Shown here one piece after another: positions 5,602 through 64,000 of a stretch of 64,000 nucleotides of DNA; within the stretch, counting starts at the first letter, position 1; every line of letters begins with the position of its first letter. Source of the DNA: Pseudomonas mosselii (GTDB taxonomy: Bacteria > Pseudomonadota > Gammaproteobacteria > Pseudomonadales > Pseudomonadaceae). The notes beneath the pieces were generated by a model, which was given only the letters and a program-made list of their open reading frames with translations, had not been told where the DNA came from and ran no database searches. The stretch is taken from the NCBI RefSeq assembly GCF_003205295.1, contig NZ_QJRP01000004.1, positions 62,001 through 126,000 of the forward strand, read 5' to 3'. Position numbers and translations under genes: made by a program.

Positions 5602-6036
5602 ATGTCCGAACCACTGGTAATCCCCTGCCCCCACTGCAACGGCCTCAACCGCCTACCCGCCGAGCGCCTGGGCGACAGCCCCAAATGCGGCCGCTGCAAA
5701 CAGGACATGCTGCTCGCTCAGCCCTTCGAACTGAACGAAAGCACCTACGCCGCCCAGATCAAGGGCGACCTGCCGTTGCTGCTGGATGTCTGGGCCGACT
5801 GGTGCGGCCCCTGCAAGAGCTTCGCCCCGGTGTTCGAACAGGCCGCGCGGCAGCTCGCCGGCCGCTGCCGCCTGGCCAAGCTCGACAGCGAGGCCAACCG
5901 CAACCTCGCCGGCCAGCTCGGCATCCGCTCGATTCCCAGCCTGATCCTGTTCAGGAACGGCCGTGAAGTGGCGCGCCAGGCCGGCGCGTTTCCACTGCAG
6001 TCGTTGCTGGAGTGGCTGCGCAGCCAAGGAGTCTAG
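5602..6036 (+). CDS. trxC: Thioredoxin 2 TrxC, zinc-binding type
   Basis: This 144-residue cytoplasmic thiol-disulfide reductase has an N-terminal zinc ribbon (C9, C12, C29, C32) ahead of a thioredoxin fold with active site WCGPC (C68, C71). The ATG at 5602 has a strong ribosome site, AAGGAGATG, just upstream; longer in-frame starts would overlap selO. The four-cysteine ribbon separates TrxC from TrxA; in E. coli TrxC is induced by oxidative stress. It follows selO by 44 bp, which suggests shared transcription with a redox-sensitive enzyme. Its stop is only 6 bp from the stop of the convergent higA gene, with no evident terminator between them. Confidence 0.96.
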   Translation: MSEPLVIPCPHCNGLNRLPAERLGDSPKCGRCKQDMLLAQPFELNESTYAAQIKGDLPLLLDVWADWCGPCKSFAPVFEQAARQLAGRCRLAKLDSEANRNLAGQLGIRSIPSLILFRNGREVARQAGAFPLQSLLEWLRSQGV

Positions 6037-6042
6037 ATACGC

Positions 6043-6399
6043 TCACACACTGGCCAGAAGGGACTCATAGGGAATCCTCAGACCATCGTGCAAGCGCTTG
6101 ATCATCGAGAGGCTCAAGCCTCGCTTGCCGTTCAATACTTCGGAAACGCGACCGCTCGGCCCGATATAACGCTCAAGATCACGCGGCGTCAGCCCTTGCT
6201 GGTCCATGCAGAACTTGATCGCTTCGATCGGGCCCGCTGAATGAATCGGATAGTGCTTGTTCTCATAAACTTCGATCAATGTCACAAGCACTTCCATTTC
6301 ATCCGCCTCCGGTGTCCCGGCTTCGGCCTGGAAAATGGCTTCCAGCCGCTTGAAGGCGGCCTGCAGGTCATCGTCACTGCGAATGGGCTTAATATTCAT
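6043..6399 (-). CDS. higA: Antitoxin HigA, HTH domain
   Basis: This 118-residue antitoxin is the second gene of a toxin-first type II pair. Residues ~1-65 form a HigA-type N-terminal region (IKPIRSDDDLQAAFKRLEAI), and residues ~68-115 form a Cro/C1-type helix-turn-helix with GLTPRDLERYIGPSGRVSEV and LNGKRGLSLSMIKRLHDGL. This matches the COG5499 HigA family, whose members neutralise HigB and repress their own promoter. ATG at 6399 is chosen because it lies inside the last codons of the toxin gene (11-bp overlap), indicating translational coupling; a longer frame lacks family similarity. The gene converges with trxC, leaving 6 bp between stops. Confidence 0.9.
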   Translation of the reverse strand: MNIKPIRSDDDLQAAFKRLEAIFQAEAGTPEADEMEVLVTLIEVYENKHYPIHSAGPIEAIKFCMDQQGLTPRDLERYIGPSGRVSEVLNGKRGLSLSMIKRLHDGLRIPYESLLASV

Positions 6400-6697
6400 T
6401 GATCGTCTCCACGTCGATCTCGTCATAGCGCTTGTGCGTTCCGACGAATTTCACCCAGGCAATACCTGCCCGATACTGCATTTCCACCACGAGCCGGTAC
6501 TTGTTGCCTCCGATGTTGAATACCACACGATTGTTCGCGCAGATGCTGGCATTGCCAATCTGCGCCTTCACGTCCTGCGGAGAACACCAATCGGCCTTGA
6601 GCACCAGGTCATGCCAGCTTTCCAGGGGCGCCTTGGCATCCTCATGCCCGGGCAGCTCCCAGAACCGGACCAACGATCGCTTTGCAATAATTCGCAT
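6389..6697 (-). CDS. higB: Toxin HigB, RelE-superfamily mRNA interferase
   Basis: The 102-residue protein has the RelE/HigB fold signature: RIIAKRSLVRFWELPGHEDA at the start, a central strand around NNRVVFNIGGNKYRLVVEM, and the C-terminal VKFVGTHKRYDEIDV. HigB toxins cleave mRNA at the translating ribosome. The toxin precedes the antitoxin, the hallmark order of higBA, and the genes overlap by 11 bp. A promoter with -35 TTGCGA (6747-6752) and -10 TAGTAT (6724-6729), spaced by 17 bp, lies directly upstream, with a perfect palindrome over the likely transcription start. The ribosome site is weak, as is common for toxins. Confidence 0.9.
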   Translation of the reverse strand: MRIIAKRSLVRFWELPGHEDAKAPLESWHDLVLKADWCSPQDVKAQIGNASICANNRVVFNIGGNKYRLVVEMQYRAGIAWVKFVGTHKRYDEIDVETINEY

Positions 6698-6706
6698 CCC
6701 GGCGCA

Positions 6707-6752
6707 ATCTCCCGTTTTGGGAGATACTAGTCAGGATCGGTACTGCTCGCAA
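6707..6752 (-). promoter_or_regulatory. higBA promoter and operator palindrome
   Basis: On the minus strand, -35 TTGCGA (6747-6752) and -10 TAGTAT (6724-6729) are spaced by exactly 17 bp. ATCTCCC (6707-6713) and GGGAGAT (6719-6725) form a perfect 7-bp inverted repeat with a 5-bp centre that overlaps the -10 end and precedes the higB start at 6697. The layout fits autorepression by HigA; the assignment of the binding protein is inference. Confidence 0.65.
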
Positions 6753-6758
6753 GTACCG
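6738..6758. repeat. Perfect inverted repeat between parA-like gene and higBA
   Basis: CGGTACT (6738-6744) and AGTACCG (6752-6758) flank a 7-bp centre that holds most of the higBA -35 element. It begins right after the stop codon of the parA-like gene (6760). It may be a second operator or a terminator stem for that gene, but there is no T-run after it, so the operator reading is preferred. Confidence 0.5.
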
Positions 6759-6759
6759 T

Positions 6760-7533
6760 TTAGGCGCTGCGCTCCAGCAAATCATGCAACTCGACGAACT
6801 GCTGGGTCAGCTTGTGCCGTGGCTCCAGGTGGATCAGCGGCAGGCTGGCATGGTGGGATTCGCGCATCTTCACCGAACTGCCCAGGTACACCGGCAGCAC
6901 CGGCAGGCCTTCGGCCAGCAGCTCATCGAGCATCTGCTGGGGCAAGCTGGCCCGTGACTGGAACTGGTTGACCACGATGCCCTCGACCATAAGCTCGTCG
7001 TTGTGGTCCTCCTTGAGTTCGTCGATCTCGGCCAGCAGGCCGTACAGGGCCTGGCGCGAAAAGCTGTCGCAGTCGAAGGGTATAAGCACGCGATCGGCGG
7101 CGATCAACGCGGAAACCGCGTAGAAATTCAGTGCAGGCGGGGTATCGATGTAGATCCGCTCGTAATCTTCGTCCAGCTCGTCGAGCAGTTTGCGCAGCTT
7201 GTTGATCTTGTGCTTGGCCTCGAGCTTTGGCTGCAGGTCGGCCAACTCCGCCGTGGCGGTGACCACGTGCAGGTTATCGAAGGGGGTTTCGTAGATATCA
7301 ACCTTGTTCTTCTTGGCGAACGGCCCGCTGGACAGCGACTGCTTGAAGAAGTCGGCGATGCCCATGGGAATGTCGTCACCGGTCAGGCCGGTCAGGTACT
7401 GGGTCGAGTTGGCCTGGGCATCCAGGTCGATCAGCAGGGTCCGATAGCCTTCACTGGCGCTGACCGCCGCAAGATTGCAGGCAATGCTCGACTTGCCCAC
7501 GCCACCTTTCTGATTGAACACCACGCGCCGCAT
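6760..7533 (-). CDS. Orphan ParA-family ATPase
   Basis: This 257-residue deviant Walker ATPase has the ParA/MinD P-loop KGGVGKSS at residues 9-16 with the signature lysine K9, the Walker A' stretch [12 protein letters not shown], and the Walker B-like region [13 protein letters not shown]. ParA proteins move or position cargo such as plasmids, chromosome origins or protein clusters, using ATP-driven binding to DNA. No parB, parS cluster or replication gene is visible nearby, and the lack of an N-terminal HTH argues against a plasmid SopA type. The chromosomal parAB pair of Pseudomonas normally lies near gidB, so this is an extra ParA of unknown cargo. It lies between the divergently organised LysR locus and higBA. 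Confidence 0.85.
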
Positions 7534-7585
7534 GTCAGACCTCCGTGTATCAACGAATGCCCGAGTATGTGGTCAGCGCAGCGGT

Positions 7586-8491
7586 TTAGCCAGCACCTTC
7601 GGGCTGCTCCAGCCCAGCCAGCAGGGCGATGAAGGCATTGGCCATGGCCGAACCGGGCGCCTCGCGACGTACCAGCCACACGGCGGTCATGGCCTCTTCG
7701 TCGAGCAGCGTGCGGTACACCACGCCTTCGATGCGCATGCGCTGGAACGAGGCCGGCAGCACCGAAACACCCAACCCTGCCGATACCAGGCCGATGATGG
7801 TCATCGCCTCCCCCGCCTCCTGGGCGAAATGCGGGCTGAAACCCGCCTGGCGCGCCAGGCTCAGCAACTGGGCATGCAAGCCACTGCCGTAGCTGCGCGG
7901 GAAGAATACGAACGGCTCGTGGGCCAGGGCCTGCATGTGCACACCCTGTTCACTGCCAACGGCCAGCGGGTGAGATGCATTGAGCACGGCCACCAAAGGC
8001 TCGCGGAACAACTCGGTGCAGGCGATCCCTTCGGGCAGCGGCATCGGACGCATCAGGCCGATCTCGATGGACTCGTCGAACACCGCCTCGACCACCTCAC
8101 GGCTGCTCATTTCCTTGAGATTAAGATGAACTGACGGATAGCGCTGGCGGAAGGCACGAATCGCCTGGGGAATCCGCGAAGTGAACGGTGCCGACGAAGT
8201 GAATCCGATCTTCATCTCGCCCAATTCACCCAGTTGCGCTCGCCGCGCCACATCGGCCGCCTTCTCCACCTGCGCCAGCACCTGACGTGCTTCTTCGAGG
8301 AACAATCGCCCGGCCTCGCTCAACTCGACCCGGCGGTTGGTGCGCTCGAACAGGCGGGCCCCAAGCTCCTGCTCCAGGGCCTGGATCTGCTGGCTCAAGG
8401 GCGGCTGGGAAATACCCAGTTGCTGGGCGGCGCGGCCGAAATGCAGTTCCTCGGCCACGGCGATGAAATAGCGCAGATGACGCAGCTCCAT
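7586..8491 (-). CDS. LysR-family transcriptional regulator
   Basis: This 301-residue regulator has an N-terminal winged HTH (residues 1-60, MELRHLRYFIAVAEELHFGR then AAQQLGISQPPLSQQIQALE) and a periplasmic-binding-protein-like effector domain (about 90-295). ATG at 8491 is preferred over an upstream TTG at 8503 because GGAG sits 6 bases before it and the upstream start would lie in a direct repeat of the control region. The sequence is closest to the BenM/CatM-like group that senses aromatic acids, but the ligand cannot be read from sequence. It is transcribed away from an MFS transporter gene, the usual layout for a regulator and its target. Confidence 0.92.
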   Translation of the reverse strand: MELRHLRYFIAVAEELHFGRAAQQLGISQPPLSQQIQALEQELGARLFERTNRRVELSEAGRLFLEEARQVLAQVEKAADVARRAQLGELGEMKIGFTSSAPFTSRIPQAIRAFRQRYPSVHLNLKEMSSREVVEAVFDESIEIGLMRPMPLPEGIACTELFREPLVAVLNASHPLAVGSEQGVHMQALAHEPFVFFPRSYGSGLHAQLLSLARQAGFSPHFAQEAGEAMTIIGLVSAGLGVSVLPASFQRMRIEGVVYRTLLDEEAMTAVWLVRREAPGSAMANAFIALLAGLEQPEGAG

Positions 8492-8501
8492 GATCGACTC
8501 C

Positions 8502-8532
8502 AAACAGGTCGTAAAACGTCTTAAACAGGTCG
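8502..8532. promoter_or_regulatory. Direct repeats in the LysR/MFS intergenic region
   Basis: The decamer AAACAGGTCG occurs at 8502-8511 and 8523-8532, start-to-start spacing 21 bp (two helical turns), between the divergent LysR and MFS genes. This fits binding of a regulator dimer pair on one DNA face. That the LysR protein is the binder is inference. Confidence 0.5.
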
Positions 8533-8613
8533 AACAATATATTGGATCTAATCATTAGCCAGCTATATGCTTTTTTCATCGCAGCACCGGCCCCAGCGCC
8601 CGAGGTACCCTCC

Positions 8614-9855
8614 GTGAGATCCGCCGTAGTCCCCCTGCCTGCCGAACCCGAGCCTGTCGTCAACGATATCTGGATCGAGAAAGGCTCGCCCGCCTTCATG
8701 AAAACCGTGCTGGCCCTGTTCAGCGGTGGCTTCGCCACCTTTGCCCTGTTGTACTGCGTGCAGCCGATGATGCCGCTGCTTTCCCGGGAGTTCTCGATCA
8801 ACGCCGCGCAGAGCAGCCTGGTGCTGTCGGTGTCCACCGCCATGCTGGCGTTCGGGCTACTGGTCACCGGGCCAATCTCCGACCGCATCGGGCGCAAGCC
8901 GGTGATGGTCTTTGCCCTGCTCTGCGCGGCCCTGTCGACCCTGGCCAGCGCGGTGATGCCGAGCTGGGAGCTGGTGCTGGCCGCGCGTGCCCTGGTAGGC
9001 CTGTCGTTGAGCGGCCTGGCGGCGGTGGCGATGACCTACCTGAGCGAAGAAATCCACCCGCAGCACATCGGCCTGGCCATGGGCCTGTACATCGGCGGCA
9101 ACGCCATTGGTGGCATGAGCGGGCGCCTGATCACCGGGGTATTGATCGACTTCGTCAGCTGGCACACGGCGATGCTCACCATCGGCGGGCTGGCCCTGGC
9201 AGCAGCGCTGGTGTTCTGGAAGGTGCTGCCCGAATCACGCAACTTCCGGCCCCAGGCGCTGAATCCGCGCAGCCTGCTGGACGGTTTCGTCATGCACTTC
9301 AGGGATGCCGGGCTGCCCTGGCTGTTCCTCGAAGCCTTCCTGCTGATGGGTGCCTTCGTCACCCTGTTCAACTACATCGGCTACCGCCTGCTGGCCGGGC
9401 CCTATCACATGAACCAGGCGCTGGTCGGGCTGCTGTCGGTGGTGTATTTGTCAGGGATCTACAGCTCGGCACAGGTCGGCGCCCTGGCCGACAGGCTGGG
9501 ACGGCGCAAGGTGTTCTGGGCCAGCATCCTGGTGATGGCCGGCGGCCTGTTGATGACCCTGGCCACCCCATTGGCGATGATCATCGTCGGCATGCTGGTG
9601 TTCACCTTCGGCTTCTTCGGCGCGCACTCGGTGGCCAGCAGCTGGATCGGCCGCCGGGCGCTGAAGGCCAAGGGACAGGCGTCTTCGCTTTACCTGTTCT
9701 GCTACTACGCGGGATCAAGTGTCGCCGGGACTGCCGGCGGGGTGTTCTGGCACCAGTGGGGCTGGAACGGGACAGGGCTGTTCATTGCCAGCCTGCTGGC
9801 GGTCGCATTGCTGGTGGCGCTGCACCTGAGCAGGTTGGCGCCTAAATCGGGCTGA
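8614..9855 (+). CDS. MFS transporter, YnfM-like 12-TM efflux family
   Basis: This 413-residue major facilitator protein has about 12 membrane segments. The MFS loop 2-3 signature appears as GPISDRIGRKPVMV and its second-half echo as GALADRLGRRKVFWA. GTG at 8614 is favoured: GAGG lies at 8602-8605, 8 bases upstream, and the product starts RSAVVPLPAEPEP before the first helix. A TTG at 8542 would add 24 residues but lies close to the regulator repeats. Overall resemblance is to the YnfM/arabinose-efflux-like group; the substrate is unknown. The divergent LysR gene probably controls it. Confidence 0.88.
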   Translation: MRSAVVPLPAEPEPVVNDIWIEKGSPAFMKTVLALFSGGFATFALLYCVQPMMPLLSREFSINAAQSSLVLSVSTAMLAFGLLVTGPISDRIGRKPVMVFALLCAALSTLASAVMPSWELVLAARALVGLSLSGLAAVAMTYLSEEIHPQHIGLAMGLYIGGNAIGGMSGRLITGVLIDFVSWHTAMLTIGGLALAAALVFWKVLPESRNFRPQALNPRSLLDGFVMHFRDAGLPWLFLEAFLLMGAFVTLFNYIGYRLLAGPYHMNQALVGLLSVVYLSGIYSSAQVGALADRLGRRKVFWASILVMAGGLLMTLATPLAMIIVGMLVFTFGFFGAHSVASSWIGRRALKAKGQASSLYLFCYYAGSSVAGTAGGVFWHQWGWNGTGLFIASLLAVALLVALHLSRLAPKSG

Positions 9856-61671: not shown

Positions 61672-61998
61672 ATGGACCTGGTACTTGACCTGCTCTCGAC
61701 CGTTTCCCGCTGGAGCCGCAGCAACCTGTCGGAAATCTCGCTGGCCCTGGTGGGCTGCCTGCTGGTGCTGTTCGGCACCGATATCAAGGGCTGGGTGGAG
61801 GGCCGCCTGGGCGGCCTGGCCGGTGCCCTGCGGGTGCCGTTCATGGCGTTGCTGGTGATGATCGGCAGCGGCGCGGCACTGATCTATGCGACGCCATGGG
61901 TCGTGAAGGGGCTGGGGCAGTTCAACAACTATGCGCTGGCGCCGGTACTGCTGGTGGTGCTGGTGTTGATTGGCGTGGTGGCTGATCGGCGGGGCTGA
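61672..61998 (+). CDS. DUF3392-family small membrane protein
   Basis: This 108-residue protein has three predicted helices: LSEISLALVGCLLVLFGTDI, FMALLVMIGSGAALIYATPW, and LAPVLLVVLVLIGVVADRR. It starts 9 bp after hemW and probably ends that transcript. The family is of unknown function. Its last ~43 bases (from 61956) are also copied 673 bp downstream as the left edge of a tandem duplication, where the copy reads VLVLIAGAADRRG and stop. Confidence 0.85.
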   Translation: MDLVLDLLSTVSRWSRSNLSEISLALVGCLLVLFGTDIKGWVEGRLGGLAGALRVPFMALLVMIGSGAALIYATPWVVKGLGQFNNYALAPVLLVVLVLIGVVADRRG

Positions 61999-62007
61999 GC
62001 GCTTGCT

Positions 62008-62036
62008 AAAAGCCGCCCTGGCGAGCCAGGACGGCT
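62008..62036 (-). terminator. Terminator of small ORF copy 1
   Basis: AGCCGCCCTGGC (62011-62022) pairs with GCCAGGACGGCT (62025-62036) over a 2-nt loop. On the minus strand the one odd pair is a U-G wobble, and the stem is followed by TTTT. The plus-strand side may also end the hemW transcript. Confidence 0.75.
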
Positions 62037-62066
62037 TCTCACCCGACTAACCCTTAGCGGGCATCG

Positions 62067-62237
62067 TCAAAGTGATCGCGCAGGAAGTCCCTGGCGGTCC
62101 TGAAAACGATCAGGATCCGAACCAGCTTCCAGACACGGCTCAGCGTATTCAGCAAACGCTTCATATGCCTTGGCCTCAGTGTTGGCTGGGCCAATCTTCC
62201 AGCGTCTAACCGGCACTTCGACACCTTCGGAGATCAT
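62067..62237 (-). CDS. Small unrecognised ORF, copy 1 of a tandem pair (56 aa)
   Basis: The 56-residue frame starts ISEGVEVPVRRWKIGPANTE and ends RQGLPARSL. The best support is comparison with copy 2: of six base differences in the aligned coding part, five are synonymous third-position changes and one changes Cys35 to Arg. That is the pattern of a real protein. The ATG at 62237 has GGAG 10 bases upstream. The product is soluble-looking, with an acidic central helix (EAKAYEAFAEYAEP) and no signal or membrane segment. No known family is recognised. A terminator follows 31 bp after the stop. A second 36-residue frame (62054-62164) overlaps it. Confidence 0.55.
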   Translation of the reverse strand: MISEGVEVPVRRWKIGPANTEAKAYEAFAEYAEPCLEAGSDPDRFQDRQGLPARSL

Positions 62238-62246
62238 GTGGGGTGG

Positions 62247-62507
62247 TCTCCAGTGAAGTGGCTGGGTAGATGGCCCTTCGAAACTCTGCCGGCGCGGTTC
62301 GTAGGCCGCGTCGAAGGGGCCGAGACAGCAGAACGAATTCGCTTCCCGGCCCGCCACTGGAAATTCCCCCATGAGAGCGGGGCAATCTTACGACAGCGAA
62401 AGGTTCAAGGCTGTTACCTGCTCAGTCACACTTGATGCCTGATATTTCCGTGATTGACGCACTCCACGAGTACTCCTAGTATCGCGTTTGTGGGTGGTCT
62501 CCAGTGA
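62247..62507 (-). repeat. Leader of copy 1 with two TCACTGGAGA boxes
   Basis: TCACTGGAGA (minus strand) occurs at 62256-62247, overlapping the ribosome site of the small ORF, and at 62507-62498, 251 bp upstream. Between them lies a conserved nested stem (CGCGG/CCGCG inside an outer CCTTCG/CGAAGG pair). No other gene is seen in this part of the gap. Confidence 0.6.
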
Positions 62508-62552
62508 CGCTTGAAATGCACAGGCTGAGGATTCGTAACCCGAAGCCCGCAT

Positions 62553-62585
62553 AAAAAAGCCGCCTTTAGCTAGGCGGTTTTTTTT
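62553..62585. terminator. Bidirectional A/T-flanked terminator, copy 1
   Basis: A-run, GCCGCC, loop, GGCGG and a T8 run form an intrinsic terminator working on both strands at the right edge of copy 1, 315 bp upstream of the small ORF start. Confidence 0.75.
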
Positions 62586-62680
62586 GGCTGCAGGCAGACC
62601 TGGCTGGCGCCCTGCCGATGTCTTCCAAGGTGCTGGTGTTGATTGCCGGGGCGGCTGATCGGCGGGGCTGAGCGCTTGCT

Positions 62681-62709
62681 AAAAGCCGCCCTGGCGAGCC
62701 AGGGCGGCT
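62681..62709 (-). terminator. Terminator of small ORF copy 2
   Basis: AGCCGCCCTGGC (62684-62695) and GCCAGGGCGGCT (62698-62709) form a perfect 12-bp stem, followed on the minus strand by TTTT. Confidence 0.78.
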
Positions 62710-62739
62710 TCTCACCCGACTAACCCTTAGCGGGCATCG

Positions 62740-62919
62740 TCAAAGTGATCGCGCAGGAAGTCCCTGGCGGTCCTGAAAACGATCAGGATCCGAACCAGCT
62801 TCCAGACGCGGCTCAGCGTATTCAGCAAACGCCTCATATGCCTTGGCCTCCGTGTTGGCTGGGCCAATCTTCCAGCGTCTGACCGGCACTTCAACGCCTT
62901 CGGAAATCGCGTGAACCAT
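62740..62919 (-). CDS. Small unrecognised ORF, copy 2 of a tandem pair (59 aa)
   Basis: The 59-residue frame starts VHAISEGVEVPVRRWKIG and is identical to copy 1 from ISEGV onward except Arg for Cys. The start differs: a 1-base indel just after the TCACTGGAGA box shifts the upstream frame, so ATG at 62919 overlaps the box and its ribosome site is immediately adjacent, less favourable than in copy 1. It has the same terminator and leader architecture. The overlapping basic/hydrophobic 36-residue frame (62727-62837) is also kept, with a single K-to-R change. The function is unknown, and either frame or an RNA could be the product. Confidence 0.5.
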   Translation of the reverse strand: MVHAISEGVEVPVRRWKIGPANTEAKAYEAFAEYAEPRLEAGSDPDRFQDRQGLPARSL

Positions 62920-63179
62920 CTCCAGTGAAGTGGCCAGGTGAGTGGCCCTTCGAAAACTTCACCGGCGCGGTTCGTGGGCCGCGTCGAAGGGGGCGAGACA
63001 ACGGATTGAATTTGTTCCCGGCCCGACACTGGAAAAAATCACATGAGAGCGGCGCGATCTTACGCCAACTGGAATGGTGAAGCTGTTACTCGCCAAGTCA
63101 CACGTAATGCTGGATATTTCCACGATTGACGCGATCTCCAGGCAACCCTAGTATTTGAACCGTGAACTGTCTCCAGTGA
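62919..63179 (-). repeat. Leader of copy 2 with two TCACTGGAGA boxes
   Basis: TCACTGGAGA (minus strand) is at 62928-62919 and 63179-63170, again exactly 251 bp apart as in copy 1. The intervening sequence is diverged but keeps the CCCTTCG/CGAAGGG and CGCGG/CCGCG nested stem. Confidence 0.6.
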
Positions 63180-63223
63180 AACTGAAACACGCAGGCCAAG
63201 GATTCGTAACCCGAAGCCCGCAT

Positions 63224-63255
63224 AAAAAAACCGCCCTTCTAAAGGCGGTTTTTTT
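63224..63255. terminator. Bidirectional terminator between copy 2 and trmB
   Basis: AAAAAAACCGCC (63224-63235) and GGCGGTTTTTTT (63244-63255) form a perfect 12-bp stem with an 8-nt loop. On the minus strand it ends trmB transcription about 48 bp after its stop. Confidence 0.92.
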
Positions 63256-63303
63256 GTACCTGCCATTTCGCAGGTTTGAAGGTCAGCGCCGAACGAACTT
63301 GGC

Positions 63304-64000
63304 TCAGTCCACCTTCTCGAACTTCAGATCCCACACCCCATGCCCAAGGCGCTCACCGCGGCGCTCGAACTTGGTGATCGGACGCTCTTGCGGGCGCGGC
63401 ACGTAGGCGCCATCAGCCGCCTGGTTGCGATAGCCGGGCGCTGCGCTCATCACTTCCAGCATGTATTCGGCATAGGGCTCCCAGTCGGTCGCCATGTGGA
63501 ACACACCACCGGGCTTGAGTTTGCGGCGCACCAGCTCGGCGAACTCCAGCTGAACGATCCGGCGCTTGTGGTGACGCGCCTTGTGCCAAGGGTCCGGGAA
63601 GAACAGCATCAGGCGATCGAGGCTGTTGTCGGCCACGCAGCGGTTGAGCACTTCGATGGCGTCGCAGTCGTATACCCGCAGGTTCTTCAGGCCCTGGGTC
63701 AGCACGCCGTTGAGCAGTGCGCCGACACCCGGACGGTGCACTTCGACACCGATGAAGTCCAGCTCGGGCGAGGCGGCGGCCATTTCCAGCAGCGAATGGC
63801 CCATGCCGAAGCCGATCTCCAGGGTGCGCGGCGCCGAACGACCGAACACCTGGTCGTAGTCCACCGGGCTGTCGGTCAGCGGCAGGATGAACAGCGGACC
63901 GCCCTGCTCCAGGCCGCGTTGCTGGCCTTCGGTCATGCGCCCGGCACGCATCACGAAGCTCTTGATGCGGCGGTGCGGGCGGGCTTCGCCGTCTTCGGTG
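63304..64000 (-). CDS. trmB: tRNA (guanine-N7-)-methyltransferase TrmB, start outside window
   Basis: The visible 232 residues are open to the window edge; the start lies just beyond. TrmB makes m7G46 in tRNA with SAM. The methyltransferase motif [19 protein letters not shown] and the signatures [15 protein letters not shown] and [20 protein letters not shown] are clear. The upstream stretch [16 protein letters not shown] matches the usual N-terminal region, so only about 15 residues are missing. It is followed by the bidirectional terminator at the right edge of the tandem duplication. Confidence 0.96.

Follow-up and report, generated by a model that had tools for sequence, protein, structure and literature searches.

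Two predicted divergent type I toxin-antitoxin modules in tandem in Pseudomonas mosselii, and their relatives on Pseudomonas chromosomes and plasmids

Among type I toxin-antitoxin systems, those of the divergent subtype (zor-orz, tis-istR and sho-ohsC) share a limited pairing of approximately 18-21 nt with the mRNA 5′ UTR (PMC3919570). In E. coli O157:H7, zorO-orzO and zorP-orzP form two homologous loci in tandem, each joining a small-protein gene to a divergent, target-specific sRNA whose 5′ end is complementary to the mRNA 5′ UTR over 18-19 nt (PMC3919570). The E. coli tisB-istR1 system also has a divergent sRNA, which pairs over about 21 nt at a site far 5′ of the start codon and competes with a ribosome standby site; the tisB mRNA has a long leader, is inactive at full length and encodes a hydrophobic 29-aa protein (PMC4147584). 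The hok-sok module is found on plasmids as well as chromosomes and has been predicted for P. syringae DC3000 (PMC8790059), and its antisense RNA acts via the leader ORF mok (PMC4147584). A further point of comparison is PhrS of P. aeruginosa, a small RNA with a conserved 37-aa ORF that acts via a creg motif on other RNAs, and for which the excerpted description mentions no antisense partner (PMC6700203). A survey of 339 P. syringae genomes, which screened named type I families, reported toxin-antitoxin systems to be almost exclusively type II and reports a hok-sok (PMC8790059); homologues of hok-sok and of ldr are reported in a survey of P. aeruginosa (PMC9424990). Homology searches detect type I systems only with difficulty, and the family described below sits in the same genus as the P. 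syringae survey, unannotated on plasmids such as NAH7.

The locus considered here lies in a 64,000-nt stretch of P. mosselii contig NZ_QJRP01000004.1 (the window), and the best reading of its sequence is that it holds modules of a new, putatively toxic family whose layout is the divergent one already known for type I systems. We consider it probable that each of its two tandem units is a divergent type I toxin-antitoxin module, toxicity itself being our inference. As in zor-orz, two homologous loci stand in tandem, each with a small-protein gene and a divergent sRNA of target-specific pairing, and the units match the divergent-subtype layout with pairing segments of 16 and 20 nt. Unlike in zor-orz, however, the peptide is 36 aa long (32-38 in relatives) and belongs to no named family found, the leader constitutes a distinct covarying RNA family, the module family occurs on Pseudomonas chromosomes and plasmids, and the window pairing segments have the lengths just given. 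The distant upstream pairing by a divergent sRNA recalls tisB-istR1, and the long leader and inactive full-length mRNA of tisB are comparable with the Shine-Dalgarno (SD) masking predicted here, although the window peptide is more charged than TisB. With hok-sok the family shares its presence on plasmids and chromosomes, whereas the window sRNA is encoded apart and divergently. With PhrS it shares a small Pseudomonas RNA bearing a conserved small ORF; judged from published descriptions, it is set apart by the action of PhrS on other RNAs and by the predicted antisense partner of the window module. In the open-access literature searched, no report was recognised as describing this family.

Under this model, the minus strand of each unit would be transcribed into an mRNA whose translation would give a 36-aa basic amphipathic peptide, the putative toxin, behind a long folded leader that can hide the SD sequence. 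A separate plus-strand promoter, facing away, would produce an sRNA of about 95 nt, the putative antitoxin, whose 5′ region would pair with 16-20 nt of the mRNA leader approximately 73-92 nt 5′ of the start codon. Such pairing would block translation and probably trigger cleavage of the duplex. The module would then have been duplicated locally and the pairing regions would have diverged. The first-pass annotation of this DNA did not include the divergent antisense RNA gene, and its addition shifts the meaning of the locus from a duplicated small gene to a duplicated toxin-antitoxin-like pair.

The two units lie between the DUF3392 gene (61672-61998, plus strand) and trmB (63304-63954, minus strand), and their main features, apart from leaders and sRNA genes, are as follows.

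61956-62628, no strand: tandem unit 1, adjoining DUF3392; it opens with 43 nt of the DUF3392 3′ end (direct repeat D1-D6)
62629-63255, no strand: tandem unit 2, adjoining trmB; it starts with a 43-nt DUF3392 3′ scrap (direct repeat D1-D6)
62054-62164, minus strand: peptide ORF copy 1, putative toxin, 36 aa with an ATG start; relatives found
62727-62837, minus strand: peptide ORF copy 2, 36 aa, with K2R and a single synonymous difference relative to copy 1
62174-62178, minus strand: SD of copy 1, TGAGG, within the arm GGCCAA, which is able to pair with UUGGCC (helix 3:4)
62847-62851, minus strand: SD of copy 2, GGAGG (helix 3:4)
62004-62037, minus strand: hairpin terminator 3′ of ORF 1
62677-62710, minus strand: hairpin terminator 3′ of ORF 2

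The first-pass annotation had proposed a local tandem duplication, and the sequence agrees: two direct-repeat units start 671-673 bp apart and share one 285-nt block at 95% identity followed by shorter blocks at 74-86%. Its description of a minus-strand small ORF, a leader and a terminator in each copy also holds, each unit carrying the ORF, the leader and hairpin terminators that were identified by inspection. So does its proposal of unequal exchange, since the 43-nt scrap of the DUF3392 3′ end that opens unit 2 makes local unequal exchange a good account of the origin of that unit. Comparable arrangements occur in P. peradeniyensis BW13M1 (L004/L160), where two copies are separated by a 31-nt DUF3392 scrap, and in P. 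reidholzensis (L187), which has three copies. At least one of DUF3392 and TrmB was present within the 1.5-kb flanks of all 21 window-like loci (L003-L023, window included), and both lay no more than 1.5 kb away in 16 of the 21. A search for Pfam DUF3392 in 14 control genomes found nothing.

Which frame of the minus strand is coding was decided by comparing 118 distinct coding sequences (85 peptides) from all collected loci, with pairs of pS 0 or of at least 0.75 dropped from the means. For the 36-aa group, mean pN/pS is 0.30 in the 36-aa frame vs 0.94 and 1.09 in the other frames; the 32-aa and 33-aa groups give 0.54 and 0.35 in frame, and the other frames of all groups range from 0.94 to 1.24. 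The SD region, ATG and stop of this ORF are conserved across related loci, and comparative sequence evidence thus indicates that the 36-aa frame is the coding one and is under purifying selection. The selection on a small minus-strand protein that the first-pass annotation proposed is accordingly retained, but it had been assigned to a 56/59-aa protein in another frame (62067-62237 and 62740-62919), where it counted five synonymous differences out of six between the copies and one Cys/Arg change. That count was close, a recount finding eight differing codons, of which six are synonymous, one is Cys/Arg and one is the start codon, and the small number of nonsynonymous differences does speak for this frame; yet it is a non-coding one. 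When the register is set relative to the 36-aa ATG, just 15 of the 39 distinct 36-aa loci keep its first 50 codons open, the relatives showing the stops and frameshifts that had been named in advance as telling against it, and the constraint is carried by the 36-aa frame, so that selection on the 56/59-aa protein now appears extremely improbable. A protein search recovered the 36-aa peptide from 38/298 genus genomes. A profile search with the 36-aa peptide extends to 89/398 genomes if a weak tail is included, in which matches near 20 bits, some within frames of at least 400 codons, are probably due to chance.

Peptides of this family are 32-38 aa long, and their C-terminal R-D does not vary among the 21 that were aligned. 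Across the 85 peptides, mean GRAVY is -0.09 and the median best 19-aa window scores 0.93; the mean net charge is +3.0, and the mean hydrophobic moment has a z of 1.64, exceeding 1.5 in 52 of the 85 (amphipathic). Proteins of the divergent subtype are small and hydrophobic; these peptides are only moderately hydrophobic, below what is expected of a membrane toxin. A Pfam scan of five of them returned 0 families at E<=10 (some type I toxins have no Pfam model), no match to Hok was found, and PHROGs and PADLOC scans of the 36-aa peptide and relatives gave no convincing named family, two PHROG matches of a single peptide (E 0.05-0.08) being left aside. Longer frames containing or overlapping the ORF, scanned with NCBIfam among others, similarly gave no convincing named family.

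The plus strand of each unit carries a predicted sRNA gene directed at the leader of the peptide mRNA.

62454-62482, plus strand: promoter of sRNA 1, TTGACG-N17-TAGTAT, from a sigma-70-like scan
63126-63154, plus strand: promoter of sRNA 2, TTGACG-N17-TAGTAT, from a sigma-70-like scan
62489-62585, plus strand: predicted sRNA 1, putative antitoxin; pairing segment 62492-62507, terminator hairpin 62553-62585, ends predicted from promoter and terminator
63161-63256, plus strand: predicted sRNA 2, putative antitoxin; pairing segment 63161-63180, terminator hairpin 63224-63256, ends likewise predicted
62241-62256, minus strand: antisense target site in leader 1, 16 nt, a perfect match to sRNA 1
62910-62929, minus strand: antisense target site in leader 2, 20 nt, with 18 Watson-Crick and 2 G-U pairs to sRNA 2

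Throughout the family, the stretch complementary to the leader lies on the divergent strand, in most cases 280-430 nt 5′ of the leader motif, and the predicted sRNAs are approximately 95 nt long. Among the 125 distinct elements that passed the leader pattern, a complementarity score of at least 11 was reached with the own partner in 114, as compared with 45/625 for swapped and 3/125 for shuffled partners, counts that are not independent because many elements come from related genomes. Differences between leader and partner in 104 segments also tend to preserve pairing: at site positions 2-22, 84 leave a G-U pair in place, 9 are transitions that break it, and a further 22 are transversions, two edge positions with 24 further breaking transitions having been excluded after the table was seen; with these included the ratio of keeping to breaking is 84 vs 33, and with no limits 91 vs 55. 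A promoter pattern stands directly 5′ of the partner in 117/120 elements, vs 81/2400 in shuffles and 3/120 on the other strand, and a hairpin-T terminator pattern follows the partner in 114/120, a count with no control for the pattern. In the window itself, a separate scan of 61950-63310 returned exactly two sigma-70-like sites (0.4 expected), namely the two sRNA promoters. The corresponding terminator scan of 61950-63310 returned one terminator-like site vs 1.4 expected, which is not above chance, and the window terminators therefore rest on inspection. The terminator hairpin of sRNA 2 may double as a terminator for trmB, read from the opposite side. From these data we predict that the locus encodes an antisense RNA complementary to the peptide mRNA.

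Pairing between the two window copies is predicted to be selective. Leader 1 forms a duplex of -38.2 kcal/mol with sRNA 1 and of -23.4 kcal/mol with sRNA 2, and leader 2 a duplex of -34.5 kcal/mol with sRNA 2 and of -29.8 kcal/mol with sRNA 1 (all predicted); in L004 and L187, too, the cognate duplex is the best in each row. By these calculations the pairing specificity of the two window copies has diverged, and since the pairing regions would have changed after duplication, each sRNA now fits its own mRNA best. A different outcome is seen in the tandem pair at L070, where copy 2 is without a partner of its own and its leader pairs with the sRNA of copy 1 (-40.6 kcal/mol); one sRNA may there cover two mRNAs.

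The leader of each copy matches a structured RNA model.

62153-62410, minus strand: structured leader RNA copy 1, model R1 match of 212 bits; putative -10 TAAGAT at 62385-62390
62826-63082, minus strand: structured leader RNA copy 2, model R1 match of 222.9 bits; putative -10 TAAGAT at 63057-63062

In an alignment of 49 leaders, kept from 66 after removal of near-identical ones, a probable -10 precedes a conserved RNA of approximately 220 nt, and the specified structure places standard pairs in 91.6% of cells. Double-change cells number 166 vs 58 (sd 9.7) in shuffles, which ignore relatedness, and at most 33 when the structure is slid by 1-3 columns. Helices 1:2, 2:3 and 3:4 each pair in most cells. 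Of the alternative helices, 1:2 is paired in 79 and 90% of cells, and helix 3:4, which joins UUGGCC with GGCCAA and covers the SD, in 94.5%. When partners were swapped, the own partner was better in 45/49 leaders for helix 1:2 and in 27/49 for helix 2:3, giving the latter no clear support, and in 13/49 for helix 3:4, which is nearly invariant and hence uninformative. In predicted folds of 110 full-length leaders the SD is paired for the most part (0.27 unpaired), which is in line with a silent full-length mRNA as modelled. With the antisense site blocked, the SD was unpaired at 0.26 vs 0.27 (n=110), no change, and the step by which the sRNA would act is thus argued by analogy. Pairing of helix 2:3 is 0.13 at full length, 0.39 in a shortened leader and 0.24 in one both shortened and antisense-blocked, and the SD remained paired in all states modelled. 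Because the swap test backs helix 1:2 alone and folding keeps the SD paired, a riboswitch or switch was dropped as a firm claim, and the leader switch is kept solely as part of the bolder reading given at the end. An RNAalifold consensus that paired the SD with a distant CCCUUC was discarded, and an Rfam scan produced only matches below the families' own thresholds. Two further elements were observed. A second SD-like GGARG upstream of the real SD is conserved across classes (motif CCGGTNAG..CTGGARG..TTGGCC) and could be a ribosome standby or protein-binding site, and a block like GTGTGAC-N7-GTAACAGC, common to window-class loci, lies between the two divergent promoters (window 63060-63110) and is a possible operator for the peptide mRNA.

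So marked a conservation of the leader, which between classes about equals that of the peptide, raises the question of whether leader and sRNA are simply a pair of base-pairing regulators with an incidental ORF, a dual-function RNA in the manner of PhrS, itself an sRNA of Pseudomonas that contains a conserved ORF of 37 aa (PMC6700203). Purifying selection in the ORF frame, the conserved SD, ATG and stop, and the locus-specific antisense partner all run counter to this idea, and we judge it very unlikely. A toxin-antitoxin module, in which the peptide is the product under selection, remains the preferred reading.

Model R1 of the leader matched 55/398 family genomes in 2/19 genera, a 25-bit match in G513 being probably due to chance, and class-wide it matched 1/369 genomes, the window's own. 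The leader pattern was present in 58 stretches of named genome contigs, two of them from unrelated MAGs, and its hosts include P. putida, P. entomophila, P. koreensis, P. gingeri, P. brassicacearum and P. viridiflava. The MAG matches are to a Dehalococcoidia and a Nannocystis, and one element sits on a contig labelled Pantoea sp. Ap-967 (L146), a label that may be wrong. On plasmids, searches of 72,556 records with three queries gave 8, 14 and 4 matching records, 18 of them distinct, and an 8.5-kb plasmid contig of P. serbica holds a complete-looking module; phage records, searched with one query, gave no match. Twelve of the 18 records and the P. serbica contig were examined, and R1 matched all 13 loci. 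The same layout with a partner scoring at least 20 was found in 9/13, including NAH7, pDR208, pPHE101 and pPT14-32, and the promoter pattern in 8 of those 9; a partner of that score was missing from pJ20133, the P. aeruginosa AR19438 plasmid, p716811 and pSTY. In NAH7 and the other plasmid matches the module is unannotated, the gene table being incomplete. Genes for a Y-family DNA polymerase and a DUF1173 protein flank it in NAH7 (5794-8871, L203), and pDR208 and a relative in P. viridiflava have the same neighbours.

Several loci depart from the common layout. Partners lie further upstream in L054 and L073, and in L140, there with a mismatch; L145 has neither a partner nor a clear ORF. No sRNA matching the intact ORF was found in the L135 sequence examined, and the same combination, an intact ORF and no matching divergent sRNA in the examined DNA, marks a plasmid lineage (L055, pSTY, pJ20133, p716811 and AR19438). 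The leader site of the large-plasmid lineage (L055, L201, L202, L211 and L212; pSTY and relatives) is partly palindromic or self-complementary, so that the pSTY lineage may use another partner or none. In other copies the leader is kept and the ORF is broken or replaced (L109, L111, L115, L116, L117, L121, L132, L023, L026, L063 and L069); in several the replacing sequence resembles Pseudomonas REP elements. Five of these 11 broken copies keep a matching sRNA and promoter and six do not. Over all copies an sRNA was found in 107/121 intact vs 12/20 broken ones, figures too rough to lean on, as some rows without an sRNA have good repeats but fail the promoter pattern or match an adjacent copy, and the locus end truncates some of the broken rows.

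The loci in which an intact ORF stands without an sRNA, few as they are, would suit a peptide that is not toxic at all but a regulatory small protein, binding for example a membrane protein, with the sRNA only setting its dose. Its basic amphipathic rather than strongly hydrophobic character agrees with this, and the invariant C-terminal R-D points to a specific partner. A selfish or addiction module nevertheless accounts better for the patchy spread (38/298 genus and 55/398 family genomes), for copies on different plasmid types and for tandem recoded and decayed copies, and we regard the non-toxic alternative as unlikely. The toxin-antitoxin interpretation, with repression by the sRNA and any role in plasmid maintenance or stress as its conjectural extensions, is therefore the one we carry forward.

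A bolder reading, which we offer tentatively as possible and somewhat short of probable, is that this is a large unnamed type I family on Pseudomonas chromosomes and plasmids, in which one RNA scaffold and peptide would be combined with many codes of about 20 nt, duplication and recoding would yield orthogonal pairs, the leader would be a three-way switch (1:2, 2:3, 3:4) keeping the mRNA silent until its 5′ part is removed, and the plasmid copies would be addiction modules. The many pairs with different codes of about 20 nt constitute a natural data set on antisense specificity after duplication, and the module is a candidate explanation for the stability of plasmids in environmental Pseudomonas.
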